34,519 nucleotides of DNA, from NCBI RefSeq assembly GCF_900009265.2, contig NZ_LR734992.1:22800-57318 (forward strand). Reading direction: 5' to 3'. Each line of letters opens with the position of its first letter. Position 1 is the first letter of the stretch. A program made the translations under genes and the position numbers. This document shows, one piece after another, positions 1,761 to 32,564 of the stretch. The stretch comes from Planktothrix paucivesiculata PCC 9631. GTDB lineage: Bacteria; Cyanobacteriota; Cyanobacteriia; Cyanobacteriales; Microcoleaceae. Under the pieces are notes generated by a model that saw only the letters and a program-made list of their open reading frames with translations, did not search any database and was not told the DNA's origin.

Positions 1761-2945
1761 CTAGTTAGAACTATTACGATAATCCGCTAGAATTATGTCT
1801 CCGAGTCCTTCTGTTTGAGCCGTTGGCTCTTGGATTATCCCACCGTTTTCCACGCTCCAACGACGCAAACTATCCAGCACGTAAGTCTTGAGATCGTCCA
1901 CAGTCACAAATTCCTTTTTACCTCGGTCAGCTTTACCACTGAGTCCTTCTAGCAAGTAGTAAGTGAAAACTCCTGATTTTCGATCGAGCGATTCTCGAGC
2001 TTTCTGTTGGGCTGTGCTAGCTGCAATTAGGGCAAACCCCTCAGCTAACTCATAAACATTATGAATGAACTGCGGATCGTCTATTCCTCGTTCGGTTTCG
2101 ACTCCCATGTGGCAAGCATCCAGCGTCAGCACCAGCCGTCTTGCTTTACTAGAACACATCTGTTGTTTTACTTCTGCTAACGGCAAGCCTGTTTTTGCTA
2201 AAGTTGGTAAACGAGTATCCCTGATGATTAGCACAGGTTGTTTATCGGTCAAAAGCTTGCCGTGACAAGAAAAATGTACCAATAATAGGTCATCTGGATC
2301 TACGATGCTGCAAAGCTGAATTAATTCAGCCTCTACATTGTTGCGGGTGGGGAAGCGGGCGTTACTCAAATCTAGACGATCGTGTAAACAAATAACTGTA
2401 TACCCAAGTGCTTTGAGTTTCTCGTCTAATGCCACCACATCTTCTACGCAGAAATTCAAGGGTTGAACTGATGGATCGTTATAGCGGTTGACACCTACCA
2501 AAAATGCCCAACGATTCTTAATAGGACGACGCTCTTCTATTTCGGTATTTCTTATCTGTGCGTTACCCCGAATATTAGTTTCTGGATTAGCTTTTTGTAT
2601 ATGACTATTTGTAGTTAGTTTTTTTCCCAGAGCATTTTCCAATTGTTCAGCTAAATCTGCCAAGTGCTGGTGACGTTCATCATTTTCATCTATCAGTTCG
2701 CTTAACTGACGAACCAATAAGACAAGCACATTTTGTTGGGTATCGCCACGATGCTTGTCTCTTAAAAAGGCAATTACAGCATCTACCCTGCTGGTAAGAC
2801 TATCAGCCTCGGGCAAATTTTTCAGCCAGGGTTTGAGTGGCTCAGAAGCAAAAACTGACCGGAGTTTGTTATGGCTCTCAAATTGTTCGCAATCTAACAG
2901 TGCTTTACGCAATTGATGATGCAGTTCTGAAGGAATACCAGCCAT
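1761..2945 (-). CDS. EAD-caspase (peptidase C14-like) protein
   Basis: 394 residues in two parts. Residues 1-107 form an all-helical effector-associated domain (EAD) with the pattern LRKALLDCEQF, then RVDAVIAFL and VLLVRQL. The same domain occurs in three other proteins of this window. After a polar linker, residues about 145-390 form a caspase-like protease: FLVGVNRY opens the fold, the catalytic His is His228 in HFSCHG, and the catalytic Cys is Cys278 in LDACH. Both dyad residues are present, so the enzyme should be active. EAD-caspases of this kind are effectors in bacterial conflict and cell-death systems, where the adaptor domain recruits the protease to a switch protein. The gene is divergent from the EAD-STAND gene and upstream of the membrane-protein gene. 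The protein substrate is unknown. Confidence 0.92.
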   Translation of the reverse strand: MAGIPSELHHQLRKALLDCEQFESHNKLRSVFASEPLKPWLKNLPEADSLTSRVDAVIAFLRDKHRGDTQQNVLVLLVRQLSELIDENDERHQHLADLAEQLENALGKKLTTNSHIQKANPETNIRGNAQIRNTEIEERRPIKNRWAFLVGVNRYNDPSVQPLNFCVEDVVALDEKLKALGYTVICLHDRLDLSNARFPTRNNVEAELIQLCSIVDPDDLLLVHFSCHGKLLTDKQPVLIIRDTRLPTLAKTGLPLAEVKQQMCSSKARRLVLTLDACHMGVETERGIDDPQFIHNVYELAEGFALIAASTAQQKARESLDRKSGVFTYYLLEGLSGKADRGKKEFVTVDDLKTYVLDSLRRWSVENGGIIQEPTAQTEGLGDIILADYRNSSN

Positions 2946-3362: not shown

Positions 3363-6300
3363 ATGATGAGTAGTCTACCAAACGAGATTGTGTGTCAATG
3401 CCGTCAAGTCCTGTTGAAATGTCAAGAATTTGATAACGATGAGTCACTTCAAGGAGTTTTTATCACTCCCGAACTTTTCCCTTTCCAATCTGGATTAAAA
3501 TCAGCGGATAGTCGGAAGGGGCGGGTAGATCTCTGTCTAAAATATCTGCTTGAAAATCATTTGAGTGACGGGGGTTCTGTTTTACCAATTTTTTTGGCAC
3601 AATTGCGCACTCGTTATGACCCGAAGGACGCACGGCATGGAGAACTGGCAGAACTTTGTGAATCTGTGCAAGCAGTTTTGACAACTTCAGCAAGTTTACC
3701 AGAAGAAAGCAACTTTGAGAGATTAAAGCAAGAATTGATTGCAGCATCCCAGGGATTGCTAAACTGGCCAATAACTCTGGGAAATGATCGGCAGATTGAG
3801 CGTCCTGAGTTTCAGCAATTACTGGATCGAATACAAGAAGAAAAAAGCTCTACAACTCTAATTCTAGGAAGTCCAGGTACGGGAAAATCTGCATTACTGG
3901 CAACTCTGGGACATCACCTCGCCGATCGCCAAGCCCCTTTATGGGCGATTAAGGCTGACCAGTTGGGACGAGGAGTGAATACACTGGAAGATTTGTGCAG
4001 ACCTTACCTGACTATAAACCCGCATGACGCTATCAGAATCTTAGCTAAAAAGGAACCCGTTGTACTGTTAATAGACCAGCTTGATGCGGTTTCTGAGCTA
4101 TTGGATCGCAAATCTGAACGACTGAATATTTTGTTAAACCTAATCCAATCTCTTTCTGGAACGTCAGGTGTGCATATTATAGCTACTTCGCGTGAATTTG
4201 AATTTCGTCATGACGTGCGGCTGTCTTGCATTAAAGCAGAAAAAATGGATTTACAACTGCCAAAGTGGGAGCAGATTGCACCTATTTTAGTTGAAGGGAA
4301 GCATAATCCTAATAGCATGGGGCAACCGTTGCGGGAATTGTTGCAAACGCCCCTTCATTTAAAGCTTTTTCTTGAAGTGGCTGCGCCAGAAGAAGAATTT
4401 AATTCGTTGCAAGCATTGCTCAATCAGTTGTGGAGTCAACGGGTTGTCGATCCAGATAGCCCATCAGACCGCCGCGAGTTGCTTGAGTTACTCGCCGAGC
4501 GCATCAGTAATGAAGAAGAGTTCTGGCTACCAACTGCGATCGCAGAAGACACTCACTCATCAGCGTGTCGAGCTTTAGAACAAGCAGAAATTCTGACCCG
4601 AAGTCCTAACGGTCTGACGATTGGATTCCGACATCAAACTTACTACGACTATACACAGGCTCGTGCCTTCGCTCGTGGTTCTGTCCCTTTAGCAGACTAC
4701 GTTCTGGAACGGCAAGATGGTCTTTTCGTGCGACCCGTTCTTCTTAGTAGCCTAAATTACTTGAGGGAAACGGCTCGTAAAGAATATCATCGACAATTAC
4801 AAAAATTACTACGGTCAGAATTACGACTTCATATCAGTACCCTATTGCTGGAATTTGTAGGATCACAAAAAGATCCTGATGACACAGAAGCGCAACTTTT
4901 CTTACCACTTTTAAATTTGGAAACTGAGGGACAACGGCTATTAGCTAATGTTACTGGCAGTCCTGGTTGGTTTTCTCGCTTGCGCGATCGCCCAGATTTT
5001 GGACAGTGGTTGGATAAATCGCCCGAACAAGCGGTTTATTGCGTATCCTTGCTCAGTACAGCTATGCTATTTGCTCCTGAAGACGTTTTAGAACTTTTAG
5101 AAGAGTGTTGGTTGAGCGATCGCACCTACGATACTCTAAGTTTTAGAGTGCTGCTGAATCTTCAACAATGGACTGAGCGGTCAGTAAGTTTAGCCAGCCA
5201 GATAGTGAGACGTTCGCCAACTTCTCAATGGGATATATCTGAACTGGTGGAGCGAATAGCAGAAAACACCCCGGAACTTGCCCCTAGACTTTGGCGTGCT
5301 TATTTAGATTGGCAGTTAGAGCAGGCTTTAACAAAAGCAAACGAACCATTACCAGAGTTACCATCAAATGCTACTGAAGAGCAACGAGCAATTCATGGTT
5401 ACCTTCATCGTCCCTTGAAGGAAGTTGAAGATCTAATAGAACGCAAAGAAGATTTTTACAAGTTAGAAAGTTTTGCTGAAGCCACACCAAAAGCTTTTTT
5501 AGATTCTGTCTGGCCCTGGTTTCTGGATGCCATAAATCGAATTGCATATCAAAAAAATTCGCTTTCTGTAGGTTATCGTGACGATAGTGCTACAAATAAA
5601 AGTTTTCAAGGAGAATTTCCATCAGGGGCTGTTGTGAGATCGTTATTAATTGGTATTTCAGAGTTAGCCAAGCAAAATATTCATGATTTTTTGGATTTTC
5701 TAAGCAAAAATTTGGGTTCCGATTTGCAAATTGTCCATCGCTTGCTAGCTCGCGGATTGGAACATATAGCTAAAGAGGAACCACAGCAGGTGTTAGAATA
5801 TTTGATTGGCGACCCAAGACGCTTGAGTTTGGGAGATCACGAAGACCACTACAGAGAAACAAAACGGCTAATAGCGTCAGTTTTTCCTTACTTAGACCCA
5901 TTAGAACGAACTCGCATTGAGGAAGTAATAATAGCTTTCAAATACTATAACCATCTACCTCCACAATTATCAGCGAAGGAAAAATTTCAATTTTTAAAAT
6001 GGCAGCGCCAAGACCGACTACGCCTTTTGCGTGCCTTTCCGGTTGAGTATTTGAGTTCAAAAACTAAGCGACTGAGAGATGAAGAAGAACGGGCATTGCC
6101 TGAAACTGATGATTATGCAAGCCGTATGTACGGTGGTTTCATCGGAGCGCGTATAACTTTGGACGAAATGGCTCGTGCTTCAGATGAAGATATATTGCGA
6201 TTGTTTGACTTACTGCCAGATAAAATGGCATGGGACAACCCCAGACGGCAATCGTTTGAAGACTTTTCCCGTGCCGGAGGTGCTGTGCAATTGTCTCGCG

Positions 6301-7682
6301 AGTTTGGTCAACTGGCTAAAAGAGTACCTGAGCGCGTTGCTAACTTAGTTCAGTACCTCCAACCAGGCGAACATGAAACTTATGCAGGCGCAGCTATAGA
6401 AGGGTTAGCTGAGACTGATGTTTCGACTGCTGAGTTAATTTGTATCATTGAAGCTCTCGAAAGTCGAGGGTTTACATCAAGAAATTTTCGTTCTAGCGCT
6501 GCATCTGCTCTTGAAAAACGCGCTCGTCGCGATGGTCTTCCCAGTATGATCCTTTCCCGTTTGGAAAATTGGTTGGTTGAAGAAGTAGAACCAACTTTGT
6601 CAACGGAAGAACAAGAGACAAGAAACAAAACTGAACAGCAAAAGGAACCTATTTTTTGGGGTTCAGGTGGCACCTTTTTCCTACCACAAGGACGAGGTTC
6701 TATTTTACCCGCGATCGCTGCTGGTTATCTTAATCAGCAACCGCCCGATCTAGAGAACTGGACGCGCATTATTGAGGAACAATTGCAGCGAGAGCGGCAC
6801 CCTAGTATTTGGGTTTTAATATTAAACTATATGCCCCCGTTACTTAATGGTGATCGACAACGAGCCACACAGCTTTTTGATGCAATTATCCAAACTTATC
6901 CGGCAGTATTGCGTTATGAGTTTGCATTGCATAGTATTTCTTGCGCTATTGGATGGTTTGAACCAAAGGAAAAGATTCAGGGATGGATAGAGAAACTGCT
7001 AGATGATGGTTCTAGCTTTTGTTGTCAAGCTTACGGAGAATTACTCCTAATTTACTACTGCCAATATCAAGATACCTGGTCAAGGGAACAAATAGAAAGC
7101 CATTTAACTAAGCAAGGCGATGAAATTATTCTTTATGGTTTAGCACAGGCTGCTAGTTATTTATGGGAACAAAAAAAGTGTCGGAAAATAGCAACAACAA
7201 TCCTATGTATGTTAGCATCATCCTCTTCCTCCTGTATTCAAGATACTGTAGCTAATGTTTTTTGTTGGAACCAAAATAATTTTAAACTCAACTTAGAAAT
7301 GCGAAAAGTTGTCCAAGCTGCCTGTGAGAACCCGCCTGTATTGCTTAAGGCAGCTTACGATCTTATTGAGTTACTTGAACCAGAGACAGGTCGGGAACCT
7401 GGTCTTGTATCGGAGGTCTGCCAAGCAATACTCAATGCTGGTAGTTCAAATCTCAATAATGCGAGTTCCTTTCTACCTTTAGGAACTGCAAGTTTAACAA
7501 ATATAGTTTTAACATTGCATCGTCAAGACATCTATCGAGAAAGGGGATTATCTATATTTGAAAAATTACTTTCTCTAAATCTGGTAGAAGCTCGCGTTGC
7601 TCTGGAAGTTCTAGATAGGAAGCCTAATCAAATAACTTATTTGCCTCGACGAAGACGGCGAATGCGAAGACAAACGTCATAA
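3363..7682 (+). CDS. EAD-STAND NTPase with long helical C-terminal sensor region
   Basis: 1439 residues. Residues 1-113 form an EAD matching the caspase EAD in pattern (CRQVLLKCQEF, then RVDLCLKYL). A STAND P-loop NTPase follows: Walker A GSPGTGKS with Lys175, Walker B VVLLIDQLD with Asp238, a sensor-like HIIATSREF, and the downstream proline motif LLQTPLHLKL. The remaining 1000 or so residues are helical, HEAT/TPR-like and irregular, ending in a strongly basic tail (RRRRRMRRQ). STAND proteins are signal-operated switches in which the C-terminal superstructure senses a cue and the NTPase oligomerises. No catalytic effector is fused here, so the EAD is the likely output, plausibly to the EAD-caspase transcribed divergently. 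Two adjacent ATG codons (3363 and 3366) are both possible starts, with only a weak GAG upstream. This is the only large plus-strand gene before the window end. Confidence 0.9.
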   Translation: MMSSLPNEIVCQCRQVLLKCQEFDNDESLQGVFITPELFPFQSGLKSADSRKGRVDLCLKYLLENHLSDGGSVLPIFLAQLRTRYDPKDARHGELAELCESVQAVLTTSASLPEESNFERLKQELIAASQGLLNWPITLGNDRQIERPEFQQLLDRIQEEKSSTTLILGSPGTGKSALLATLGHHLADRQAPLWAIKADQLGRGVNTLEDLCRPYLTINPHDAIRILAKKEPVVLLIDQLDAVSELLDRKSERLNILLNLIQSLSGTSGVHIIATSREFEFRHDVRLSCIKAEKMDLQLPKWEQIAPILVEGKHNPNSMGQPLRELLQTPLHLKLFLEVAAPEEEFNSLQALLNQLWSQRVVDPDSPSDRRELLELLAERISNEEEFWLPTAIAEDTHSSACRALEQAEILTRSPNGLTIGFRHQTYYDYTQARAFARGSVPLADYVLERQDGLFVRPVLLSSLNYLRETARKEYHRQLQKLLRSELRLHISTLLLEFVGSQKDPDDTEAQLFLPLLNLETEGQRLLANVTGSPGWFSRLRDRPDFGQWLDKSPEQAVYCVSLLSTAMLFAPEDVLELLEECWLSDRTYDTLSFRVLLNLQQWTERSVSLASQIVRRSPTSQWDISELVERIAENTPELAPRLWRAYLDWQLEQALTKANEPLPELPSNATEEQRAIHGYLHRPLKEVEDLIERKEDFYKLESFAEATPKAFLDSVWPWFLDAINRIAYQKNSLSVGYRDDSATNKSFQGEFPSGAVVRSLLIGISELAKQNIHDFLDFLSKNLGSDLQIVHRLLARGLEHIAKEEPQQVLEYLIGDPRRLSLGDHEDHYRETKRLIASVFPYLDPLERTRIEEVIIAFKYYNHLPPQLSAKEKFQFLKWQRQDRLRLLRAFPVEYLSSKTKRLRDEEERALPETDDYASRMYGGFIGARITLDEMARASDEDILRLFDLLPDKMAWDNPRRQSFEDFSRAGGAVQLSREFGQLAKRVPERVANLVQYLQPGEHETYAGAAIEGLAETDVSTAELICIIEALESRGFTSRNFRSSAASALEKRARRDGLPSMILSRLENWLVEEVEPTLSTEEQETRNKTEQQKEPIFWGSGGTFFLPQGRGSILPAIAAGYLNQQPPDLENWTRIIEEQLQRERHPSIWVLILNYMPPLLNGDRQRATQLFDAIIQTYPAVLRYEFALHSISCAIGWFEPKEKIQGWIEKLLDDGSSFCCQAYGELLLIYYCQYQDTWSREQIESHLTKQGDEIILYGLAQAASYLWEQKKCRKIATTILCMLASSSSSCIQDTVANVFCWNQNNFKLNLEMRKVVQAACENPPVLLKAAYDLIELLEPETGREPGLVSEVCQAILNAGSSNLNNASSFLPLGTASLTNIVLTLHRQDIYRERGLSIFEKLLSLNLVEARVALEVLDRKPNQITYLPRRRRRMRRQTS

Positions 7683-7703: not shown

Positions 7704-7740
7704 GTCACTCCTCATTTTTGGAGTTTGGTGATCACTTTTT
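7704..7740 (+). terminator. Candidate terminator after the STAND gene
   Basis: GTCACTCC (7704-7711) can pair with GGAGT (7720-7724) and, after a short bulge, with GTGAT (7728-7732). A run of five T residues follows (7736-7740). The bulge and a G-T pair make the stem imperfect. The position, 22 bp past the STAND stop and before a convergent gene, fits a terminator. Confidence 0.3.
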
Positions 7741-7826: not shown

Positions 7827-8027
7827 TCATTGATTTTTTAGTTGGGATGAAGAAGACTCTGATCCTTTATACGGACTACTTTGAGTAATTGAATTTTCAA
7901 TTATCTGCTTAGTTTCTTGCCTTGTGACTGGAGTAATACGACCTCCAGCGCCATCTTGTCGGGTGACGTTTGTTATTTGGCCAGAGTGCATGGAAGGCTT
8001 ATCTCCGTTTGAAAGTTTGTCATTCAT
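7827..8027 (-). CDS. Small tail-sharing protein B, 66 aa
   Basis: The chosen start (MNDKLSNG) overlaps the stop of protein A by 8 bp, with no strong ribosome binding site, so translation is probably coupled to protein A. An ATG further upstream in this frame only re-reads protein A. The protein is polar and probably disordered. It carries two copies of a short motif, GQITNVTRQD and GRITPVTRQE. Its final 38 residues (from GRIT to the end) align without gaps to the tail of protein A: TKQIIENSITQSS here against SKEMLENSVTQSS there, each followed by an SSSS run and an Asn-rich end. No family is recognised. Lying at the 3' end of a CHAT-protease operon, it is a candidate protease substrate, cofactor or inhibitor. 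That role is inference. Confidence 0.65.
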   Translation of the reverse strand: MNDKLSNGDKPSMHSGQITNVTRQDGAGGRITPVTRQETKQIIENSITQSSPYKGSESSSSQLKNQ

Positions 8028-8373
8028 TTTTTGTTTTGGATGAAGAAGATGGGCGTTGCTTGGATTGACTGCTCTGAGTAACCGAGTTTTCGAGCATCTC
8101 TTTGCTTTCTTTTCCTGTGAGGGAGGTAGCACGACCATCGGCGGCTCGAAGGCTATCTAAATCATCAATCGGTATATTAAGGATAGCATCTAGAATTAGC
8201 GGATGTTCTTCACACCAGAGGGCTATTGCATTAGAGATTTCTTCAACATCATCTGGGAGGGTTGAAAGTAAATCTTTTAAATCTGCACGGTCTTCTGCTG
8301 TAAATAGTTCGGGTTGAGTTTGTACTAAATAAACAAAAGTTATGATATTTTCTTCGTAATCAGATAATGACAT
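8020..8373 (-). CDS. Small tail-sharing protein A, 117 aa
   Basis: The start MSLSDYEENI is chosen because a perfect AGGAGG lies 4 bp before it. A longer frame starting nine codons upstream would re-read the CHAT gene's end. The N-terminal 75 residues are acidic and predicted helical (LFTAEDRADLKDLLSTLPDD, then LWCEEHPLILDAIL). The last 38 residues form a Ser-rich tail (GRATSLTGKESKEMLENSV onward) closely related to the tail of protein B just downstream. The gene begins 8 bp after the stop of the MoxR-vWA-linked CHAT protease. I do not recognise a named family. The context suggests a dedicated partner of that CHAT protein, perhaps the cleaved target or a regulator. The gene itself is well supported; its function is unknown. 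Confidence 0.75.
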   Translation of the reverse strand: MSLSDYEENIITFVYLVQTQPELFTAEDRADLKDLLSTLPDDVEEISNAIALWCEEHPLILDAILNIPIDDLDSLRAADGRATSLTGKESKEMLENSVTQSSQSKQRPSSSSKTKNE

Positions 8374-8377
8374 TTTT

Positions 8378-8383
8378 CCTCCT
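8378..8383 (-). promoter_or_regulatory. Strong Shine-Dalgarno site inside the CHAT stop region
   Basis: AGGAGG on the minus strand overlaps the TAG stop region of the upstream CHAT gene and sits 4 bp before the ATG of small protein A. It fixes that start and is the strongest ribosome binding site seen in this operon. It suggests protein A is made in larger amounts than neighbours that rely on coupling alone. Confidence 0.7.
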
Positions 8384-11300
8384 ATACGCCAATAGCACAA
8401 AATGCAGCCCAGTGAAAAGGTTCTTTAAAAGGCTGGTCATCATTCGCCATTTTATGAAGACGACGACGCAAGCTGATTTTAAGTGTTGGATTTAGATACC
8501 AAAGATTCTTTTTTATTGATTGATCTATTTCTCTTTTTGTGATTTCTCGAAGCCAGAGTTGGGCTTGATTAAGGGCTATAGGTATTATAGAACCTGCTTG
8601 TAGGTTTTGATAAAACTTGATCATCAAAAGAGCTGTTGACAAATCACTAGGAGCCCAAAGGCTACCAACTACACTTTTACTACCTGCAACTAAAAAAGCA
8701 CTAGGAAAGCCAATCAACTCGTTACTAAACTCTTTGAAGTCCGTTAAGCCTGTTTCACAAGCAGAAAGGGTGACTAAGCGACATTGGCTCAAGTTAAGAT
8801 TAAGAATCTCTTGTACAGTCAAAGTTTCATGGGAAGATAATAACAGTGGGGACTCTAGAGGTGAATCAATATTAAAGCTGCTTCGGCCAGTAAAATGGAA
8901 ACCATGACCTGTAAAATGTAGTATTTGCTCTTTAATTGCTGAGTTTTCAACACTTTCTTTGCTAAAGACCTTAGTTGGGGGAAAATACTTCTTAATCGTT
9001 TCTACTTCAATATCAGTATATGTTAGGCCGTCAGTAGGGTTTTGAATAGCTAGTAAATTGCGGAAGTTTGGCCGTTGTCTATTTTGGAGTATTTTTAAAA
9101 ATTGGCAACTAGGTACATAACTTACTCCACCATAAAAACGATCTAAAAAATATAAACCGCCGACCAATGGAAGAGCATGAAGAGGTAACCAGTGCAAAAA
9201 ACGATGGGGAATTAAAATTAATTGTTGGCAGGCTTCAGGTATATAATTGAGAATTTGATCTATATGCAGTAGCTGAGTAAGTGTTTGGAGCTGTACTGAT
9301 AGTTTCTTGCGCCAAAATGGTTGGTTTTGTGTGTAATCCTCTAAATACTGATTAGCCCATTCAATCAACGCTGATTGATGTGGAAATTGCAGAACAGACG
9401 GGTAAGCAGATTGCCTGGTGACAATAAATATATATAATTTTTCTTCTACAATATACCATTCTATTATGGCAGTGTCCTCATCTAAAAGTGATTGAATTTC
9501 GTTAAAAGAAATCGATTGAACACTTTGGGTTAAATTAAAGGCTGGATCGAGAGGCAAAATATCATGCTTAATTAACTCGTCTAGCTGTTTTTGCAATTGA
9601 CTTAGCCGATTCTGAGTTGGTTGGATTGGCTGAGAGTCAGATAATAGATTCTCATCATTAAAAATAGAATCGTCATCAATAAACCAATTGCTTCCTGAAA
9701 TTTTAAATCTTTTCTGCTCCAGTGCTATTTCTCGTCGTAGACGTTTCAATTCGTTAATGGTAGAGTCTGGAATATTGCCTTTTGGGTAGATGTCAATGGT
9801 TGCAAGGAGTTCTGCCAAGCTACGTGCTTTACTACGCTCAACGTACTCAAGCGCTCGGTCAGGATAACCCAAAGCTAGACATACTTCAATCATATTTTGG
9901 TAGAGCTTAGTCCATTGTTTCGCAAGGTTTTCTTTGCCTTTTTCGATTTCTGAGTTAAACAATATTTTTCCTCTGTGCAAAGATTCTACTGTATCAATAC
10001 TGTCAACAAAAGCATTGTAAGCATTCGGAAAATCTTGCGCCTCTTGGTATGCCGAACCCAGATTAAATAGACATTCTAAATAATTATGAGGAAAAGATTC
10101 GCGAGTGTAAACTTGTAAAGCAACCTGAAAACAACTAATAGCCTGTTCTAAGTTTTCTGTCCTAACTCCTCGAATGCGATCACGGTAGACAATACCCAAA
10201 TCCTTTTGAGTTTCTGCCCACTGCTGAGGAAAAGATTCGCGAGTGTAAACTGTTAAAGCACGCTCAAAACAACTAATAGCCTGTTCTAAATTTTCTGCTT
10301 TTTCTCCTCGAATGCGCTCGCGGTAAACAATACCCAGATCTTTCTGAGTTTCTGCCCACTGTTGAGGAAAAGATTCGCGAGTGTAAACTGTTAAAGCCTC
10401 CTGAAAACAACTAATAGCTTGTTCCAAGTTTTCTGACCTATTTCCTCGAATGCAATCGCGGTAGGCATTCCCCAAATTGAGTTGGGTATTCGCCCAATCC
10501 ATTGGAAAAGCTTCGCGACTCCATACTGATAAAGCATTCTGGCAGCAATTAATTGCGCGTTCTAAATTTTCTGTTTCTTTACCTCTAATGCGTTTCCTGT
10601 AAGCTAATGCTAAATTGTTTTGGGTCATAGCCCAATTGTAGGGGAAGGTTTCGCGAGTATAAATCTGTAAAGCATTCTGGAAACAACGAATAGCTAGCTC
10701 TAAATTTTCTGCTAGATCGCTTCTAAGTCTTTCAGCATAAGCTACTGCAAGATTATTTTGAATGTCTGCCCACTCTTGAGGATAATTTTGTAAAGTATTT
10801 ACTTCCAAAGCTGTTTGGAAACAGTGTATAGCCATTTCTACATTTTGAGCTTTTTCTCCTCGAATGCGATCGCTATAAACCATTCCCAAATTTTTCTGAG
10901 TCATAGCCCATTGTTCTGGAAAAGCTTCGCGAGTGCGTACTTGCAAAACATCATTAAAACAGCGGATAGCAAATTCTAAGTTTTCTGCCTTTTCGCCTCG
11001 AATACGTTGAGCGTAAGCAGTACCAAGATTATTTTGAGTGAGTGCCAATTGTTCTGGGAAGGCAAAGATGGAGTGAGAGTAGAGTTCCAACGCCGCCTGC
11101 AAATAATGTATGGCAGATTCTAAATTTTCTGCTCTGTCTCCCTGGATTCTATGAATGTAAGCAACACCTAGATAGTTTTGGATAATTCCCCATTGTTCGG
11201 GAAACTGTTCTTGCCTAAAAACTTCACAAGTAATTTGATATCCAGTAATAGCAATTTCTAAGTTACTTGCTCTATTACCTAACGGAAATTCTTCTAATAA

Positions 11301-12236
11301 ACTACTAAAATTAATTACGTCTGTTGCAATTTCATATAATCTTTCTGGTTCTATATTTAATAGTATATCAGTTGACCATCGTTTTAGCGACCAAATTAAA
11401 TCTTCATTTAATTTTCCTAAATTCCGGCTTAATAATGAATAAATTAATTGAGGATTATCATAATTATCAGAAACGAACTGTAGCAATTCTTCTATAAAAG
11501 ATAAGTCAACTGAAATTAGATTAACTTCATCAGGGATTGACAAAGTTACTCCAGCAATTTCAACCTGACGTTCCTGCCTGGGTAGCTTACTGAATTGTTC
11601 TGTTGCGCCTTCTAAATCGCCTATTGTAAAAGATATCATCCCACGCGCATAGGTGATCAGTGGTGGTTCAAATTCTACCAAAGCGTTTGGAAAACTTTCT
11701 ATCAATAGCCCTAACCGAAACAAGTCTTTCCAGTTTTTCTGCTTTAATCTTTCTTCAATAGCCTGTGCTAATTTGCGATTAAGCTGATAGGGCTGAGTAC
11801 AAGCAAGGGATATCCAATACTCAGCTTGGGCTAATTCTCCTACTTTGGAATCGTTACTATCAAGCTGCTGTTTTACATACTTGGTGTAGAAATCAGCTAG
11901 TTCCTTTAAGCGTGGTTTCCCAAAGCACTTATCTTCCTTTAGTTCTTCCAATAATAGATTTCGGACAGCCATATCCATCTCGTAAAGCTCATAGCCTACC
12001 TCGCGGCACAAGCGAGACAAAAGTATGCGAGCAACTGCTGTCCAAGGAGCTTGGGGTATAAAGCGAAGCCAAATTTGGTAAAGCAAGTCTGGAGTAAGTG
12101 TCTGTGGAAATGCTGCATGGCAAGCTAAGTCGAGGTGTGCGCGATCGAATTGTTGGGCAAATCCTACGACTCGCTCAATAGCTATTTCCGAATGTGTTGC
12201 TTTACTTCCATTCATAAGGATTGTTACAACATCCAC
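8382..12236 (-). CDS. MoxR-vWA-linked TPR-CHAT protease
   Basis: 1284 residues. Residues about 20-240 form an N-terminal helical module (AHLDLACHAAFPQTLTPDLL, then GYELYEMDMAVR) that I recall preceding varied effectors encoded next to vWA/MoxR genes in cyanobacteria. A linker with FPLGNRASNLEIAITGY follows. About eight TPR-like units of 46 residues (about 341-755) come next, each with the pattern FP..WA.TQ.NLG.AY..RI.G...ENLE.AI. The C-terminal CHAT protease has His1111 (HFTGHG) and Cys1160 (LSACETG) and ends in FHWAAFCAIGV. The dyad is intact. The start ATG overlaps the vWA stop by 13 bp (coupled translation); a second in-frame ATG is seven codons later. The gene completes a MoxR-vWA-effector set and is followed at once by two small proteins that may be its partners. 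Confidence 0.92.
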   Translation of the reverse strand: MDVVTILMNGSKATHSEIAIERVVGFAQQFDRAHLDLACHAAFPQTLTPDLLYQIWLRFIPQAPWTAVARILLSRLCREVGYELYEMDMAVRNLLLEELKEDKCFGKPRLKELADFYTKYVKQQLDSNDSKVGELAQAEYWISLACTQPYQLNRKLAQAIEERLKQKNWKDLFRLGLLIESFPNALVEFEPPLITYARGMISFTIGDLEGATEQFSKLPRQERQVEIAGVTLSIPDEVNLISVDLSFIEELLQFVSDNYDNPQLIYSLLSRNLGKLNEDLIWSLKRWSTDILLNIEPERLYEIATDVINFSSLLEEFPLGNRASNLEIAITGYQITCEVFRQEQFPEQWGIIQNYLGVAYIHRIQGDRAENLESAIHYLQAALELYSHSIFAFPEQLALTQNNLGTAYAQRIRGEKAENLEFAIRCFNDVLQVRTREAFPEQWAMTQKNLGMVYSDRIRGEKAQNVEMAIHCFQTALEVNTLQNYPQEWADIQNNLAVAYAERLRSDLAENLELAIRCFQNALQIYTRETFPYNWAMTQNNLALAYRKRIRGKETENLERAINCCQNALSVWSREAFPMDWANTQLNLGNAYRDCIRGNRSENLEQAISCFQEALTVYTRESFPQQWAETQKDLGIVYRERIRGEKAENLEQAISCFERALTVYTRESFPQQWAETQKDLGIVYRDRIRGVRTENLEQAISCFQVALQVYTRESFPHNYLECLFNLGSAYQEAQDFPNAYNAFVDSIDTVESLHRGKILFNSEIEKGKENLAKQWTKLYQNMIEVCLALGYPDRALEYVERSKARSLAELLATIDIYPKGNIPDSTINELKRLRREIALEQKRFKISGSNWFIDDDSIFNDENLLSDSQPIQPTQNRLSQLQKQLDELIKHDILPLDPAFNLTQSVQSISFNEIQSLLDEDTAIIEWYIVEEKLYIFIVTRQSAYPSVLQFPHQSALIEWANQYLEDYTQNQPFWRKKLSVQLQTLTQLLHIDQILNYIPEACQQLILIPHRFLHWLPLHALPLVGGLYFLDRFYGGVSYVPSCQFLKILQNRQRPNFRNLLAIQNPTDGLTYTDIEVETIKKYFPPTKVFSKESVENSAIKEQILHFTGHGFHFTGRSSFNIDSPLESPLLLSSHETLTVQEILNLNLSQCRLVTLSACETGLTDFKEFSNELIGFPSAFLVAGSKSVVGSLWAPSDLSTALLMIKFYQNLQAGSIIPIALNQAQLWLREITKREIDQSIKKNLWYLNPTLKISLRRRLHKMANDDQPFKEPFHWAAFCAIGV
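10088..10400 (-). repeat. Near-identical 138-bp TPR-coding direct repeats
   Basis: A 20-bp core, GAGGAAAAGATTCGCGAGTG on the plus strand, recurs at 10088, 10226 and 10364. The spacing is exactly 138 bp, or 46 codons. The coding units ESFPQQWAETQKDLGIVYR in the CHAT protein are almost the same in two neighbouring repeats. Older TPR units in the same gene have drifted much further. This marks a recent unit duplication within the array. Confidence 0.8.
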
Positions 12237-13426
12237 TGATAGGGACGCTCCCAGTAAACATAGCGACCGCGCAGAGTATTAATAGCTGCATTGAGTCCCT
12301 GACGACTCATCTCAAACATTGGCACAAAACGAGCAATTTCGCCAGCAGTAGTGTACTGCCAGCTATCATTTGGCATGGGATTGAGCCAAGCATAATAACG
12401 CACTGACTGCTGAAGTTGTTCGATAAACTTCTGCGTGTACTCAACTCGCTCTGGGTTATAGTTACCCCTAGCTGCTCCCGCATCGCTGACAATCAGTACC
12501 CCTGCTCTTTCATCAACCGATTTCAAAACATCAGTAGTTAGTTGGGCTTTGATGCGAGTTTGATCGGTATAAAAATATTTTTCAGGATAATTATAAAAAT
12601 AGTAAACATTTGTTTGGATAAGGTTTCCACCCCGTAGAGCTTTATCTATTAATTGGCGGGATAAATGATGGAAAGGCACCATTGAGCCACCTTGGTCAAC
12701 CAGTAGGACAAGTTTTACTCGGTTTACATAGCGCGGCATTAACACTGGTTCAATTAAGATGCCCTGCTGACTAATTTTTGCTACGGTAGCCTCCACATTC
12801 AATTTCTGTAATGTACCTTGGCGCACTGGACGACGGAAAAAACGCCAACTTTGCTTAATCTGCCGAGGAGTTACTGGCAGATATTGAGCGGCTGAATCTT
12901 GGCCGTAATAAATCATATCTAAACTATTGGGCCTATGATACCGGATAGCTTGAATAACCTGCTCTGGTTCATCTCTTTCTATAGGGATATCAGCCGTTGG
13001 AGTTGGCTCGGATATAGGTTTTTCCGACCCTTTTAATGAAGTTTGCCCTTTAAGTTGCTCCGATGTTTTAACAATAGGTGGTGATGAAGAAGACTGAATA
13101 GTTTTGTCAGATTCCTTTGCTGAAGTTCCAGTTGAAAGTGGAGGAGATATATCTTGGATAGGTTGGGGTAATTTAGTAGAGAGAGATTCATTGGTTATTA
13201 TTTGATCTAGAAGTCGATGTAGCTGGCGAGCTTCTTCTTTAGATTTTGTCCACAGAGTACAACATAGTCTTTCTAAAGAGGCGCGATTGCCTATGCCAAA
13301 TCCACCTTGCAATGCCTCTAACGCCAACATATAGTCTGGAAGTCCCAATGAAAAACCATACTGTCGCAAACTGTAAAAAAGACGCAGTAAAATTCTCAGC
13401 AAAGGTATTTCTTCGATGGGATTCAT
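12224..13426 (-). CDS. vWA-domain protein of the MoxR-vWA pair (SAV_2336-like N-terminus)
   Basis: 400 residues. Residues 1-75 (LRRLF-type helices, YMLALEALQGGFGIGNR, then LCCTLW) resemble the N-terminal domain of SAV_2336-related proteins. Residues about 80-155 are Ser/Pro-rich and probably disordered. Residues about 238-400 form a von Willebrand A fold: VLLVDQGGSM with Asp244, then VLIVSDAGAARGNY. The metal site reads DxGxS rather than the usual DxSxS, so metal binding may be altered. In MoxR-vWA systems the AAA+ ATPase remodels or loads the vWA partner, which in turn presents or regulates an effector. The ATG shares a 4-bp overlap with the MoxR stop, and the stop overlaps the CHAT start, so all three are translationally coupled. 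Confidence 0.9.
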   Translation of the reverse strand: MNPIEEIPLLRILLRLFYSLRQYGFSLGLPDYMLALEALQGGFGIGNRASLERLCCTLWTKSKEEARQLHRLLDQIITNESLSTKLPQPIQDISPPLSTGTSAKESDKTIQSSSSPPIVKTSEQLKGQTSLKGSEKPISEPTPTADIPIERDEPEQVIQAIRYHRPNSLDMIYYGQDSAAQYLPVTPRQIKQSWRFFRRPVRQGTLQKLNVEATVAKISQQGILIEPVLMPRYVNRVKLVLLVDQGGSMVPFHHLSRQLIDKALRGGNLIQTNVYYFYNYPEKYFYTDQTRIKAQLTTDVLKSVDERAGVLIVSDAGAARGNYNPERVEYTQKFIEQLQQSVRYYAWLNPMPNDSWQYTTAGEIARFVPMFEMSRQGLNAAINTLRGRYVYWERPYQWML

Positions 13427-14373
13427 TTTTTCTCCTGCTGTGGGGCACGCAGGTATTCTCTATAATTTATCCAACGATCTTTTAATAGAGTTTCAGCAAA
13501 AGGAAGTTCGCCTTGAAGTTTTGCTAATAATTCGTCTTCTGGATATTGTCGCAGTATAGTAAACCAATCAATTAGTTCACTGGTACTTACGTTTTTACCC
13601 GTTCTGCCTCTGCTATTATCCATCTCATCTCTTAGCTCCTGAAATTTCTTTGTTGCAGCCACAACAACTGGTGAAGCTGTATTTGGAAAATGCTCATTAA
13701 TAATGTTAACTAATTCAGCATATTTTGGAAATTCTATATAATGAAATAGGCAACGGCGTAAGAAAGCATCTGGTAAATCTTTTTCGTCATTACTGGTGAT
13801 GAATATAATCGGTGGTTCTTTCGTCTTAATTTCGTATTCTTTCTCTGCTTCTTTTTCCTTAACTTTTATCTCCGGTATCGTAAACCGTTTTTCATCTAGT
13901 ACCTGGAGTAAGTCGTTAGGAAAATCAAGGTCAGCCTTATCAATTTCATCAATTAGAATCACAGTACGTTGAGAATTTTCAAAAGCACGACCTAATGGCC
14001 CCAGTTTGATATAATTCCAAAGATTATCAACTTTCGAGAGTTTCTGTTCGTCAAGACGTGCTAATTGGGCATCGTGGAGGCGAGCGATCGCATCGTAAGT
14101 GTAACAACCATCCTTCGCCTTGGTTGTAGACTGAATATACCAAGACTCGTAAGGCAAGCCTAGCTCATAAGCCACAGCACGAGCCAAGCGAGTTTTACCG
14201 CTACCAGGTTCCCCCTTGAGCAATAAAGGACGTTTCTTTAAAAAAATGGTGAGATTAACTGCTTCAACCAATTCTAGTGAAGGGATATAAGGTTCAAGTC
14301 CATAAAGTTCGCGCTCCTCTGCGGAGGGTTTCTTTTCACCCGTATAGATCCGAGGTATCACTGAATCAACCAT
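13423..14373 (-). CDS. MoxR-family AAA+ ATPase
   Basis: 316 residues, a usual MoxR length. Walker A is GEPGSGKT with Lys60. Walker B is VILIDEIDKA with Asp142 and Glu143. Sensor 1 is FITSND and the Arg-finger region is FLRRC. The catalytic set is complete, so the ATPase should be active. The protein should form hexamers and act as a chaperone-like remodeller of the adjacent vWA protein, in the cytoplasm. The start overlaps the iSTAND-like gene by 16 bp and the stop overlaps the vWA start by 4 bp. The order MoxR, vWA, effector matches the known ternary conflict-system layout. Confidence 0.95.
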   Translation of the reverse strand: MVDSVIPRIYTGEKKPSAEERELYGLEPYIPSLELVEAVNLTIFLKKRPLLLKGEPGSGKTRLARAVAYELGLPYESWYIQSTTKAKDGCYTYDAIARLHDAQLARLDEQKLSKVDNLWNYIKLGPLGRAFENSQRTVILIDEIDKADLDFPNDLLQVLDEKRFTIPEIKVKEKEAEKEYEIKTKEPPIIFITSNDEKDLPDAFLRRCLFHYIEFPKYAELVNIINEHFPNTASPVVVAATKKFQELRDEMDNSRGRTGKNVSTSELIDWFTILRQYPEDELLAKLQGELPFAETLLKDRWINYREYLRAPQQEKK

Positions 14374-15464
14374 TTTGCTAATCCTCCTTCCCAGCTAAAA
14401 CCACAGTAGTAACAAATTCTTTGATAAACCAAATCGGGAACGCCTCCTTGAGACTCTGCCAGTAATGTCTCAACACATAAATTTTCAGGTACTACCTCTG
14501 CTGCTACTGCCATGCCCACCCATTCATTAAGCTTCCTTACTGGAAATCGACTAGCAGGAGGTAAAGAAAGAGGAATTCTAGGTAAATCTGGGTGATTAAC
14601 TTGCCAAGCTAAAGAAAGTCCTGATTTGCATATATATCCTTTATTATCTACCAAAAACATGGCTAAATATGTTTCTCGCTGATTGTTTTTTTGTACCAAT
14701 GGTTGCCAAAATTCCTGAATTAACTCTGGTAAAAAGCTTATATAAGTACGGTGGGCATCTGAAAAGATAAAAATTAAATGTTGAGTTTGCAAAAGCTCAA
14801 AAATTTGATCTATTATTTTAGTTTCTGGCAGCCAATTAGTCTGGTTCTTATCCAGTAAGTGTTTGCCAACTTCATTCCATAAGTTGGATATGTCCTCCAT
14901 GCCACCAACTTTAATTTTTATTCGTCGCCCATTTCGTAACTTAGATAATTGAGATAGTCGGGTAACCAAAGTCTCTTGCCCGAATTTTTCTTCACCATGA
15001 ACCAGGAAAGCTGCTGTTTTGTTGTAACTTGGCGAATCTAATACTTCCATCACGGCTTCTTCCTGCTCGTCAAAGTCAATACGGAGAAGCGATTTAAAAA
15101 GTTTATGTTCAGATTGAGGTACTTGTTGCTGACAAGCTTGAGGCTGGTTCTTCCATGCTTCAACCTTGGTGCATAAGTCATCAAGCTGAGTCCAGAGCAT
15201 ATCATCTGGATGCTGGCGATCTCTTAATTGTTTCAAAAAAATTGGAAATATCCAACCATATAATCGATGCTCTGAGCAAAACAAAACCTTAAAGTTGAAG
15301 TCAAATAAATTTCTTGGACTCTTAGCATCTTTTAGTTGCAATCTTATAAAAGAAAGGCTATCAATAACGCAAAGCGAACGCAGACTTTCACAGCTTTCAA
15401 ACTGTTCACACTCCAAAAGAAGTTCTCTGCATAATTGATATAGTTCAGATGGTGGCGCTTTCAC
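14358..15464 (-). CDS. EAD protein with decayed P-loop (iSTAND-like)
   Basis: 368 residues from a GTG start (VKAPPSELYQLCREL). This start aligns with the starts of the caspase and STAND EADs and has GGGAG 7 bp upstream. An ATG at 15602 would add 46 residues that look like frame-shadow of the small gene before it. Residues 1-100 form the EAD (LLLECEQFESCESLRSL). The rest has a STAND-like outline, but Walker A reads GEEKFGQET from Gly157, without the Lys-Ser/Thr, and the Walker B region reads FIFSDAH. NTP hydrolysis is therefore unlikely. Inactive STAND domains (iSTAND) joined to EADs are known in vWA-MoxR systems, and this protein fits that role as a binding or adaptor switch. It lies directly upstream of MoxR with a 16-bp overlap. 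Confidence 0.75.
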   Translation of the reverse strand: MKAPPSELYQLCRELLLECEQFESCESLRSLCVIDSLSFIRLQLKDAKSPRNLFDFNFKVLFCSEHRLYGWIFPIFLKQLRDRQHPDDMLWTQLDDLCTKVEAWKNQPQACQQQVPQSEHKLFKSLLRIDFDEQEEAVMEVLDSPSYNKTAAFLVHGEEKFGQETLVTRLSQLSKLRNGRRIKIKVGGMEDISNLWNEVGKHLLDKNQTNWLPETKIIDQIFELLQTQHLIFIFSDAHRTYISFLPELIQEFWQPLVQKNNQRETYLAMFLVDNKGYICKSGLSLAWQVNHPDLPRIPLSLPPASRFPVRKLNEWVGMAVAAEVVPENLCVETLLAESQGGVPDLVYQRICYYCGFSWEGGLAKWLIQ

Positions 15465-15606
15465 AATCAATCTCCCACAGCTTGTAACAGCCCAGTAATC
15501 GCTGATATGCCTGGACACCATCTTGATAATTTCGTCCCCACTGTGGAAACTCTTGCTCAGTCTCCCTACTAAAGACTTCTTGCAAATAACAGGATAATTC
15601 ATTCAT
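15445..15606 (-). CDS. Small protein between phosphoesterase and iSTAND-like gene, 53 aa
   Basis: The frame starts MNELSCYLQEVF, overlaps the phosphoesterase stop by 8 bp and runs to a stop 20 bp inside the iSTAND-like gene. It reads as protein rather than shadow: a helical pattern with FSRETEQEFPQW, then VQAYQRLLGCYKLWEID. The 8-bp overlap geometry equals that between small proteins A and B. A longer upstream extension in the same frame re-reads the phosphoesterase and is rejected. No family is recognised. It could link the phosphoesterase to the iSTAND-like switch, or be a spurious frame. The competing reading is that the 414-codon frame of the next gene occupies this space. Confidence 0.5.
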   Translation of the reverse strand: MNELSCYLQEVFSRETEQEFPQWGRNYQDGVQAYQRLLGCYKLWEIDCESATI

Positions 15607-18271
15607 ACCGTTGAAACAATTCAAAATCTCTCGATAAAGTGTGCTGGTTATCATCCAAGTCAAACGAATAATCTGGGACAATTTTTCTTTGTCCCCCTTG
15701 CAGGCGTGCTTCACGAGGCCAAAACATTAACTTACCCTTGTTTTCACTAAGTTCAATTTTACCAGCCGTGTAGCCATGCAGACGATTGAGGCGTTGTCCT
15801 GTTTTCGTTTCATAGTATTCTAACCCACAGAGCGATCGCCCTTGCCAAATTCGTCTAGCTTCAGTACCGCCTTGAACAATCTCTCTAGAATTAGCTTCAT
15901 GTAGATGACCGCATAGGTGAACAGCAAAACGACCGCGAGCGGTAATTTCTCCATTCAAGTGCGTTTGGGCATCAGGGGTTAACCAACTTGGTGGATGATG
16001 CGTCAGTAACAGGCAGGCGTGATGCTGCCTTGCCCAAGTTGGGCTATCGCCGTCACAAACCTGGTGAAATTGCCGGGGATGGATAGCCAGCTTGCCCTCA
16101 TAGTTTTCACCAGTAAGCTGAAGAAAGCTTGTATTCAAACCTAAAATTCCCAGCTTGGCACCATTCTTTTCAAGAGTGGCTGAAAAATCCCCTGGTACAA
16201 TACCATCTTTTAAGTTTTCTGGCTTAAAGGGTTGCCGTTCCCACCATGCTATGTAGTTTTCAAAGGCTTTTGTCACAACTTGGCGATAGGGCGATTCTGC
16301 ATTATGCCAAAAATCTTCTTGTACATCCGCTTCCTCTAACCACCGCCGGAGTAATTTTACCGCAGGATCTTTTATGTTAGGTCTGACTAAATCATGATTT
16401 CCTGGTACTGCCAGTAGCTTAGGAGAGGAACCCAATTGAGCAAAATAATTCCATAGTTGTGTCAAAAGTTGCTCGATTTTTTGAAATTCTTCAGCACTGC
16501 CACGCTGAGTTAAGTCACCAGTAAATACAACCAAGTCCCACGGCCCACTTTTATCGTGGAGTCTCCTTAAATCTTCAAAAAATATTTCTTTGACACCAGG
16601 CCAAAGCCAATCCTGGTCTCTCATACCTTGATGAAAGTCGGTTAAGTGTAACCAACTAAAGCTATTATTAGTTGTATTTACTTTTGGATTAGGAACGCGG
16701 GGGTTAATTGTTATTGGAGTTCGAGGACTTCTACCTGCTAAGTCTGGATTAGCTCCACTTCTGCTACGAATAATACTAAGTTTATCTGCTAGCTCGTCTG
16801 CTAGTTCAGATAAAGTTTGATGCCGACTATCTAATGGATCAATTGTATTACTTAGCAGCCGTACTAAAATAGTCAGTACATTCTCATTGGTATCGCTACG
16901 ATACTTATCCATTAAAAAACTAATTACCTGTGTTACCCGTTGAGCCGTACTATTAGCTTGGGGCAAACTATTAGCCCAAGGAGAAAGCAGGTCATAACTA
17001 AAGAAGCTTCGTAGTTCCTCATTACTTTCAAATTGGCTGCACATTGACAGAGCTTTAGACAATTGATTATGGAGTTGAGCTGGAATCCCTGGCATATCTT
17101 TGCTTACAACATCATTAGCAAGGCTTTCCTCTACTGTAGCTTTAAGATGTTGCAGGCGCTTATATCCTAAATTAAGTAAAAGCTGATCTGCTTGAATTTG
17201 AGATTGCAATTTATTGCGAACATCCTCCAAAAACGCTTCCCACAAAGTTAAGTCAGTGTCTGGTAATGCCCCTAGCTTGTCCAGTTTCATCCTGTAATTC
17301 TGTTCGTTAATAGCGATGGTATGTTTGTGGGCATCTAGTTCTCCCAGGTAGCCAAAATACTCAATATCTATCCCCTGTAACTCTGTCAACAATTGCCGAA
17401 GGTGCCTTTGCCGATCTGGTGATTGGGAAATTTGACCGAAGTTATTCCCATGCTGTTCTATGCGATTGTAAGATTGTTTTAGCTGGCGATCACAGAAACG
17501 AGATTCATGATAGACATACTGAATTTTATGGCGACACCACAAAAGATAAAGCAATAACTCAGATGCCTTATCCATATCGTTTGAATTCATACTTTGGCAT
17601 TTAAACCAAACTAGAATATGGAGTTGCTTACTTGGGTTTTTATGTTGACTTTCATACTCAAAAATCGGATTTCCTAACAAGTAGCCCGTGTTTATTAGCT
17701 CAGGTTTATCTGTTTCTGGAACTAATTGAAGAACACAATCATCTGCCAAACCTTGGTAGTTTTCCTGTAATTCAATTGGTTGCCCAAACAGTAATAGTGT
17801 TTGTCCCAGAGAAGCTTGAATATGTGATGGCAGTAATAGGTATTGTGGATTAAAGTTCAATAATTGAGGCAGAAAAAATGTTTCTTGAGAAGACAGGGTT
17901 AAATCGATCGCATAACTATCATGCAATCGGTATGGGCAGAGTAATCCCTGAAATTGTAAGCCATCTGGTTGAGCAATTATTTGAAAATCTAAACTTTTTT
18001 TTCTATTGAGTAGTAAAGTACAATATTCACTTTCTTGGTTATCTTCCGCTTCGGGAAAATAGTGGTTATTTTGATAGCTAATCAGTTGTTGTGGTAGATT
18101 TTGCAGTTCTCGACTGTCAAGCTTATTTCCCAAATCTACCAACTGTTCCCATAACCGAGGTGCTTCTGGTACAGTCGGCTCTAGTCCCTGGTTGATGCTG
18201 TTTCGTAGATGGAAGGCGTAGAGGGTGAGACTGGGGCTACGCAGCCCCCAATTCTGGGGTATTTCGTTCAT
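15599..18271 (-). CDS. Three-part protein: N-terminal helical region, EAD, calcineurin-like phosphoesterase
   Basis: 890 residues. Residues 1-385 have no named family by eye; the later part (about 255-385) is helical and coiled-coil, ending in SQIQADQLLLNLGYKRLQHL. Residues 393-500 form an EAD starting MPGIPAQLHNQL, closely parallel to the caspase start MAGIPSELHHQL. Residues about 540-860 form a calcineurin-like metallophosphoesterase with all motifs: LTDFHQG (Asp545), GDLT (Asp586), GNHD (His626), THHP (His758, His759) and GHLH (His789, His791). The dinuclear metal site is complete, so phosphodiester or nucleotide hydrolysis is expected; the substrate is unknown. The gene starts 47 bp after a TPR-CHAT gene and overlaps the 53-residue gene. 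The internal Met393 suggests an EAD-phosphoesterase that later gained its N-terminal part. Confidence 0.9.
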   Translation of the reverse strand: MNEIPQNWGLRSPSLTLYAFHLRNSINQGLEPTVPEAPRLWEQLVDLGNKLDSRELQNLPQQLISYQNNHYFPEAEDNQESEYCTLLLNRKKSLDFQIIAQPDGLQFQGLLCPYRLHDSYAIDLTLSSQETFFLPQLLNFNPQYLLLPSHIQASLGQTLLLFGQPIELQENYQGLADDCVLQLVPETDKPELINTGYLLGNPIFEYESQHKNPSKQLHILVWFKCQSMNSNDMDKASELLLYLLWCRHKIQYVYHESRFCDRQLKQSYNRIEQHGNNFGQISQSPDRQRHLRQLLTELQGIDIEYFGYLGELDAHKHTIAINEQNYRMKLDKLGALPDTDLTLWEAFLEDVRNKLQSQIQADQLLLNLGYKRLQHLKATVEESLANDVVSKDMPGIPAQLHNQLSKALSMCSQFESNEELRSFFSYDLLSPWANSLPQANSTAQRVTQVISFLMDKYRSDTNENVLTILVRLLSNTIDPLDSRHQTLSELADELADKLSIIRSRSGANPDLAGRSPRTPITINPRVPNPKVNTTNNSFSWLHLTDFHQGMRDQDWLWPGVKEIFFEDLRRLHDKSGPWDLVVFTGDLTQRGSAEEFQKIEQLLTQLWNYFAQLGSSPKLLAVPGNHDLVRPNIKDPAVKLLRRWLEEADVQEDFWHNAESPYRQVVTKAFENYIAWWERQPFKPENLKDGIVPGDFSATLEKNGAKLGILGLNTSFLQLTGENYEGKLAIHPRQFHQVCDGDSPTWARQHHACLLLTHHPPSWLTPDAQTHLNGEITARGRFAVHLCGHLHEANSREIVQGGTEARRIWQGRSLCGLEYYETKTGQRLNRLHGYTAGKIELSENKGKLMFWPREARLQGGQRKIVPDYSFDLDDNQHTLSRDFELFQRYE

Positions 18272-21267: not shown

Positions 21268-21282
21268 TTATTCCTCTATAAA

Positions 21283-30841: not shown

Positions 30842-30843
30842 AA

Positions 30844-31172
30844 CTAACCTATGGCGCAAAACGCTGCCCAATAAAACGGCGATTTAAAAGGTTTAGCTTC
30901 ATCTGGCATTAGCTTCACCTGGGGCTTGAGATTTATTTTCTGCGTCCGATCGAGCAATAGCCGATCTTCCTCAATCCATCTCTCTAATTCTAGTTTTGTT
31001 ATATTCCGCAGCCAAATTTGAGCTTGATTCAGTGAAAGGGCTACCGATAAACCCTGATGCAAATTTTGATAAAACCGAATCATCAAAAATGCTGTTGATT
31101 TGTCATCTACTGTCCACAAACTGCTGACAATATTGGGGCTTCCTGCATATAAAAAGCCATTAGGCAGACCTA
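30844..31172 (-). pseudogene. C-terminal remnant of a sixth CHAT protease
   Basis: Reading opens at IGLPNGFLYAGSPNIVSSLW and runs to FYWAAFCAIG and a stop. It covers only the end of a CHAT domain, after the catalytic Cys. The residues before IGLP in the intact paralogues (LSDEY) and everything upstream are absent. The break coincides with the end of the MITE-like element at 31173. An internal ATG (31119) could still start a 91-residue piece, but both catalytic residues are gone, so it cannot be a protease. Confidence 0.85.
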
Positions 31173-32445: not shown

Positions 32446-32564
32446 AGCGGCTATCAAGAGTGCGGAGTGCGATTGAGATAAAGTAGAGGAATACAAAAAT
32501 AGGATTTAGGTTTGATTTTATCCCAATTTCCTGGTCAAACACTTACACCAGAAATCGACGGGAA

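Follow-up and report, generated by a model that had tools for sequence, protein, structure and literature searches.

The small protein A, encoded behind a CHAT effector gene in Planktothrix paucivesiculata PCC 9631, is a member of an unnamed protein family, part of which is tightly linked to CHAT genes and to a second family, here termed X. We consider it moderately probable that A is a small adaptor which sits at the C-terminus of an effector and couples it to X, with the adjoining protein B as a tail-only copy of A. This reading builds on gene order, gene fusions, tail sharing and the loss of catalytic residues by alignment, from which we infer every physical contact and the direction of signalling. 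The DNA analysed, here called the window, is a stretch of 34,519 nucleotides (contig NZ_LR734992.1, positions 22,800 to 57,318).

On the minus strand, the genes run in the order X-bDLD1-phosphoesterase, bDLD1-iSTAND, MoxR, vWA, vWA-L-TPR-CHAT, A and B (Table 1), and the AAA_5, VWA_CoxE and iSTAND domains of the neighbouring genes score above the Pfam cut-offs. The operon is an iSTAND MoxR-vWA ternary system in the sense of Kaur et al. 2020 (PMC7159879; this paper and the others identified by PMC number are cited here and below from extracts). The name vWA-L was assigned by position and from the published description (PMC8195603) rather than by profile, and relatives of this vWA-L-like part (N-terminal 250 residues) occur in 124 of the 388 genomes of the order. 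Terminator-like sites number 12 in the scanned region against a shuffle mean of 8.7, and one of them follows B.

Table 1. The ternary operon and its 3' flank, in positions of the window
Feature	Positions	Strand	Remarks
Terminator-like hairpin 3' of B, possible operon end	7707..7724	-	consensus match only
Protein B, 66 aa; second A-type tail with one more motif repeat, lacking the N-terminal domain	7827..8027	-	
Protein A, 117 aa	8020..8373	-	directly 3' of the CHAT gene
Effector with vWA-L-like N-terminus, TPR and CHAT; probable pseudoprotease (Arg in the His column, Cys1160 kept)	8382..12236	-	
vWA (CoxE-like) protein	12224..13426	-	PF05762 E 2.9e-8
MoxR-like AAA+ ATPase	13423..14373	-	PF07728 E 4e-13
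bDLD1-iSTAND, third component of the ternary system	14358..15602	-	PF19995 E 3.4e-21, PF20689 E 1.9e-9
X domain (about 390 aa), bDLD1 and calcineurin-like phosphoesterase	15599..18271	-	

Upstream of the operon, a tandem array (18319-31119, minus strand) comprises four full TPR-CHAT genes and a CHAT fragment of 91 aa; three of these CHATs, aligned as controls, keep both the catalytic His and Cys, and an integrase-like gene (31471-32496, minus strand; phrog_1, E 4.8e-31) adjoins the array, a hint of mobility. Downstream, a bDLD1-caspase and a bDLD1-NACHT-like protein are encoded at 1761-2945 (minus strand) and 3363-7682 (plus strand), giving four bDLD1 proteins within 17 kb.

With A as query, 142 of the 388 genomes of the order match at E-values up to 0.1, and a profile of 29 A sequences matches 157 of them at E-values up to 0.001. 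In a draw of 57 genomes across the phylum, A was found in 7 of the 15 genomes of the same order and in none of the 42 outside it. The A of the window matches nothing in Pfam, NCBIfam, PADLOC or PHROGs, the same holds for B and the X protein tested in PADLOC, NCBIfam and PHROGs, and searches of 29 A and 16 X members against Pfam gave scattered weak matches, each in one member. Searches for relatives among solved structures reached best E-values of 0.31 for A and 0.015 for X (in its coiled-coil part), none of them convincing, and a contig scan with A alone as query gave no match. Titles and abstract openings of the literature on MoxR/CHAT/vWA, cyanobacterial TPR-CHAT, CHAT/gasdermin, HetF/PatU3 and SAVED-CHAT show no A-like or X-like family, which is weak evidence of absence since the families are nameless.

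A sequence-only reading of this DNA had described A and B as frames of 117 and 66 residues with a common tail, and these descriptions hold. The start of B overlaps the stop of A by 8 bp (ATGAATGA), the last 39 residues of the two proteins align without gaps with 20 identities, and A carries one copy and B two copies of the motif G-x-[IA]-T-x-[VL]-T-x-x-[DE]. The best ungapped identity between the two proteins is 22, which none of 5000 shuffles of B reached (highest shuffle, 16). In the pooled ORFs (637,052 residues), the motif outside A and B has a single match, an A relative (L049). The tail segment of the nearest A relatives reads approximately G-[RN]-x-T-[PS]-[LIM]-T-x-x-E-[SAT]-K-[ED], and a looser tail pattern gave 16 matches in the pooled ORFs, all of them such A relatives (two pairs being one contig counted twice). 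At the DNA level, the tails of A and B are identical at 25, 30 and 22 of 39 first, second and third codon positions, respectively, with dN about 0.34, dS about 1.0-1.1 and dN/dS about 0.3. Thus, the excess of dS over dN together with the codon-position pattern suggests that the tail is kept as protein, under protein-level selection.

Translation signals bear out the earlier reading less fully. The ribosome-binding site of A, which had been called the strongest of the operon, is indeed strong (AGGAGG, 4 nt before the ATG), but its first rank is doubtful, as MoxR has AAGGAGG 9 nt before its ATG. B lacks a Shine-Dalgarno sequence, so its translation could come only from coupling to A. The layout of A comprises an N-terminal domain of about 75 residues, inferred to be helical, in which Trp53 is invariant among 29 aligned members, followed by a hinge (RAADGR), a conserved tail segment (KESKEMLENSVTQS) and a Ser-rich end, which like that of B is probably disordered.

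Locus counts given here and below (X, vWA-L and A neighbours) rest on the best 150 matches and on loci chosen from them. We examined 60 A neighbourhoods chosen from the listed matches, 17 named ones and 20 X neighbourhoods without a listed A upstream, which, with six doubly fetched neighbourhoods and B left out, yield 85 A-family members. X lies downstream of 41 of these A genes. Of the 41, 31 follow a CHAT gene at a distance of up to 1.5 kb, 9 form the C-terminal part of a CHAT fusion, and in the remaining case (L122) the contig ends 197 nt from the start of A. A and CHAT genes are thus truly linked, as had been proposed, and with CHAT upstream or fused in 40 of the 41 A-X pairs the link is tight in part of the family. 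Neither CHAT nor X is found within 1.5 kb of 30 of the 85 members. These include three at short contig ends (L055, L059, L125), two with a CHAT farther away (L071, L113) and four in which A is fused to a DUF2887/Rpn-type protein, assigned by Pfam in L095 and by resemblance in L086, L087 and L094. An A-like domain also ends a DUF2887/Rpn-type protein located between CHAT and X in L053/L120 (one contig) and in L057. The genome of the window strain itself has six A places, four of them beside or in a CHAT gene (the window, C163, C136 and, as a fusion, C112), with X downstream in three of these four, and 23 CHAT matches overall; the C163 locus (L041) is an intact CHAT-A-X cassette. On a mobilizable Pseudanabaena plasmid (L149, 14001-28291, plus strand), A and X are followed by four CHAT genes, an order unlike that of the usual cassette.

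X is present in 221 of the 388 genomes of the order. Among its best 150 matches, 67 lie on the same strand as a listed A and no more than 3 kb behind it, at a median gap of 15 nt; a listed A lies downstream of four and on the opposite strand near none, and 83 in all have no A upstream among the matches listed. Of 20 such loci inspected, 12 do have an A, either separate or fused to CHAT, and 8 do not (L132, L133, L134, L136, L138, L142, L144 and L145; several near contig ends), so X can exist without A. CHAT is among the listed neighbours in only one of these eight (L138). The same 246-aa gene adjoins X each time in L133, L134 and L145, where neither A nor CHAT is among the listed neighbours. 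Free-standing X proteins have about 480-500 residues, and in a simple hydropathy scan all 25 full-length ones covered have one or more strongly hydrophobic stretches close to the C-terminus, a 180-aa X piece (L050) having none. The X versions of ternary systems carry bDLD1 in place of these hydrophobic C-terminal segments.

A vWA-L-like N-terminus occurs together with A in ten loci (the window, L112, L043, L047, L118, L114, L115, L119, L045 and L048), all found by the A search, so that the constancy of A among them is partly a matter of selection. Their effectors are TPR-CHAT in five, X in three, NB-ARC with a partial CHAT-like match in one (L114) and Lipase_3 with a septin-like GTPase in one (L115). 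Effector and A form one fusion protein in L112, L047, L115 and L045; in L048 the X part is interrupted by a break, and A lies on the frame that carries it on. In L114 and L119, a TPR-CHAT gene whose Cys motif looks intact starts 234 nt after A, and these two loci are therefore not CHAT-free; no CHAT was seen in the fetched stretches of L045 and L048. A ternary-type A also occurs in L116, at 10 nt from a preceding CHAT whose dyad is intact. Approached from the effector side, 7 of the best 150 vWA-L matches have A, among the matches listed, within 5 kb, and by comparison of the listings by eye these are 7 of the 8 best, the eighth (G153) being near a contig start. A thus seems to be an acquisition of one branch of vWA-L effectors that was retained while the effector was exchanged. 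In L112, L114 and L119, a Trypsin_2 domain follows X-bDLD1 and takes the place that the phosphoesterase has in the window.

The CHAT domains of this branch differ from those of the cassettes at their catalytic residues. In a MAFFT alignment of 50 CHAT domains (47 A-linked ones and the three window controls), with the catalytic columns taken from an intact CHAT of the window, all five CHATs that are associated with vWA-L and found with A have lost His, Cys or both (in the order His column/Cys column, window R/C, L043 D/S, L118 H/S, L112 H/T and L047 P/G). In L043, the CHAT has a reading frame of its own, which lies 38 nt behind that of vWA-L. Among the other A-linked CHATs, 41 of 42 keep both residues, L116 included, and the exception (L060) is a 69-aa fragment. 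Common descent of the five ternary CHATs is probable, and their losses would then not be five independent events, although the lesions differ. In the window CHAT, Cys1160 is present, as had been stated, though the aligned position of the catalytic His is Arg, and a separate profile from non-ternary sequences likewise places Arg in this column; the protein is thus probably a pseudoprotease. His1111, seven residues before the aligned position, was considered as the catalytic His and dropped, as two alignments give Arg at the catalytic position; it could conceivably act as a stand-in.

The family profile match extends to position 100 of 115, within the tail, in 38 of 40 cassette members, in all 10 ternary members and in 25 of 26 orphan members, as well as in one of four DUF2887 fusions and five of five other A members. 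The tail is thus kept in A copies away from CHAT and is not a CHAT-specific tag. Scanning the last 70 residues with a permissive regular expression, we found a Gly-containing hinge, [PA]G[GST], in 29 of 40 cassette members, 7 of 10 ternary members and 5 of 26 orphans, many of the orphans being mutually close relatives. This contrast is a lead for a recognition or cleavage site, but kinship could explain it too. A conserved Arg-x-Pro-Gly cleavage site in A was also considered and dropped: the Arg is gone and the Gly-rich hinge left in several CHAT~A fusions (L130, L131, L135, L137, L140, L141 and L143).

The sequence-only reading tentatively took A and B as possible substrates of the neighbouring CHAT protease. 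Several observations speak against such a role in the window operon: the His position of the CHAT is Arg and four relatives of the same layout have lost the Cys or both residues; A is also found behind or fused to effectors without a full CHAT domain; 9 of 40 cassettes have it as a C-terminal extension of CHAT; and its tail is kept in 25 of 26 copies with neither CHAT nor X near. What survives of the proposal is the linkage of A and CHAT in part of the family, and a protease-substrate pairing is possible where CHAT is intact. The outcome that had been named as adverse to it, namely tails occurring mainly away from CHAT genes, is seen in part, in that the orphans keep the tail. In a wider form, A would be a substrate or inhibitor whose hinge (often P/A-G-G/S/T) is cut by the cassette CHAT, freeing X at the membrane, with the window as a decayed derivative. 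Preservation of the dyad in all non-ternary A-linked CHATs but the 69-aa fragment (41 of 42), the hinge frequencies of 29 of 40 in cassettes against 5 of 26 in orphans and the precedent of Csx29, which cuts the neighbouring Csx30 in a flexible loop (PMC10028731), agree with this form. We nevertheless regard it as unlikely, for an A-CHAT fusion in 9 of 40 cassettes is more readily expected of a domain than of a substrate to be consumed, the window and four relatives have a broken dyad, A also accompanies effectors lacking a full CHAT domain, and the orphans are often close kin, so that the hinge contrast is not independent.

The adaptor reading covers two settings of A. In the free-standing cassettes, A lies behind or is fused to a TPR-CHAT with an intact dyad and just ahead of X; in the window it would serve an iSTAND MoxR-vWA ternary system, whose degenerate CHAT effector probably only binds protein. 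The N-terminal domain of A would dock on the effector, and its hinge and conserved tail on X, here the X-bDLD1-phosphoesterase protein. Sensing by MoxR-vWA-iSTAND would thereby be passed to X and its attached enzyme, with B supplying a second tail, in the window strain only. Against this stand the 30 A copies that lack both CHAT and X within 1.5 kb, given which the module may have another role; X without A in 8 inspected loci, the A-guided choice of the ten ternary loci together with the 7 of 150 listed vWA-L genes that have a listed A nearby, the CHATs of L114, L119 and L116, and G330, where the fetched region and the 11 kb upstream hold no X, likewise count against it. The tail might instead be a handle for the MoxR-vWA chaperone pair, gripped by the AAA+ ring to remodel or unfold the effector complex, with B as a second handle. 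The Ser-rich, probably disordered ends and the location of A in a MoxR-vWA operon in ten vWA-L loci would suit such a role; however, 54 of 60 A loci (the window apart) have no MoxR match at an E-value of 1e-4 and cassettes keep the tail (38 of 40), and we regard this as very improbable.

The best account of B is a local, partial duplication that is under some constraint at the protein level, with a putative function. As a query it matches 28 of the 388 genomes at E-values up to 0.5; matches below 0.02 come from its own genome and from eight others, in which they are tails of A relatives, and the assessment of B genes covers these nine genomes, the other 19 matching more weakly (E above 0.03). 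Alternatively, B may be a by-product that arose when the 3' end of A was partly duplicated and that has hardly any function, if any; this is a serious possibility, somewhat short of an even chance. It would explain why no convincing B gene is found in the other 387 genomes (weak matches at E-values above 0.03 aside), why no B-like frame of 40 or more residues is found in the 17 named loci, and why B has no ribosome-binding site. The tail dN/dS of about 0.3 and the greater conservation of second codon positions argue against it, though both could reflect the A copy alone.

More broadly, we put forward, tentatively and with more doubt than conviction, that CHAT-A-X is an undescribed cyanobacterial protease cassette, composed of a TPR-CHAT, a bridging A and a membrane-ended X that is released or cut on activation. 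The ternary branch would have captured A, and its CHAT would have decayed to a protein-binding decoy and been swapped for a lipase, NB-ARC or X, with A kept as the common plug. If true, many cyanobacteria of the order (A in 157 and X in 221 of 388 genomes) would harbor an unnamed protease cassette evolutionarily linked to MoxR-vWA conflict systems. It would offer candidate partners for orphan cyanobacterial CHAT proteases and a way to test why the peptidase-like effectors of MoxR-vWA systems are so often dead.

Among known systems, the published iSTAND ternary systems (PMC7159879) share with the window the order of MoxR, CoxE-type vWA and bDLD1-iSTAND, as well as the presence of bDLD1 on both the third component and another protein of the locus, here the X-phosphoesterase protein. 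The effectors of MoxR-vWA ternary systems are described as often catalytically inactive (Kaur et al. 2020, PMC7159879), and a minority of iSTAND systems have vWA-L and the effector on a separate gene (PMC8195603). However, the term CHAT is absent from the main text of PMC7159879, and neither a small module like A nor an X domain or a duplicated tail is mentioned in its consulted sections. Csx29-Csx30 (PMC10028731) resembles the window in its TPR-CHAT architecture and in a partner encoded in the same locus. Unlike a CHAT protease with a dedicated neighbouring substrate, the window CHAT lacks the catalytic His position, and hence an intact His-Cys dyad, and it scores 69.5 bits against the Csx29 model (NF041237), under the cut-off of 300. 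A is also far smaller than Csx30 (565 residues; PMC10028731) and travels with non-CHAT effectors as well (L114, L115, L119, L045 and L048), although L114 and L119 have a CHAT gene shortly after A. With these loci and the 30 of 85 members that have neither CHAT nor X nearby, A is not confined to CHAT loci.

Like the EADs of Kaur et al. (PMC7159879), A is a small module devoid of enzymatic features, placed beside or fused to different effectors. EADs are small and mostly all-helical; A is small, and its putative helices are judged from sequence only. In contrast to EADs, which have copies on a core component and on the effector, A has no copy on the iSTAND, MoxR or vWA protein of the window, where a phmmer search with A (E 1e-4, ORFs of at least 50 residues) returned A and B only. 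HetF is a CHAT protein. HetF-PatU3 and the window have in common a cyanobacterial CHAT protease, which in the case of HetF has a defined protein target (PMC12288457), and differ in that patU3 belongs to a hetZ-patU5-patU3 cluster (PMC12288457). In Nostoc punctiforme, the expression of a CHAT, a MoxR and a VWA gene is reported to be correlated (PMC12691664).
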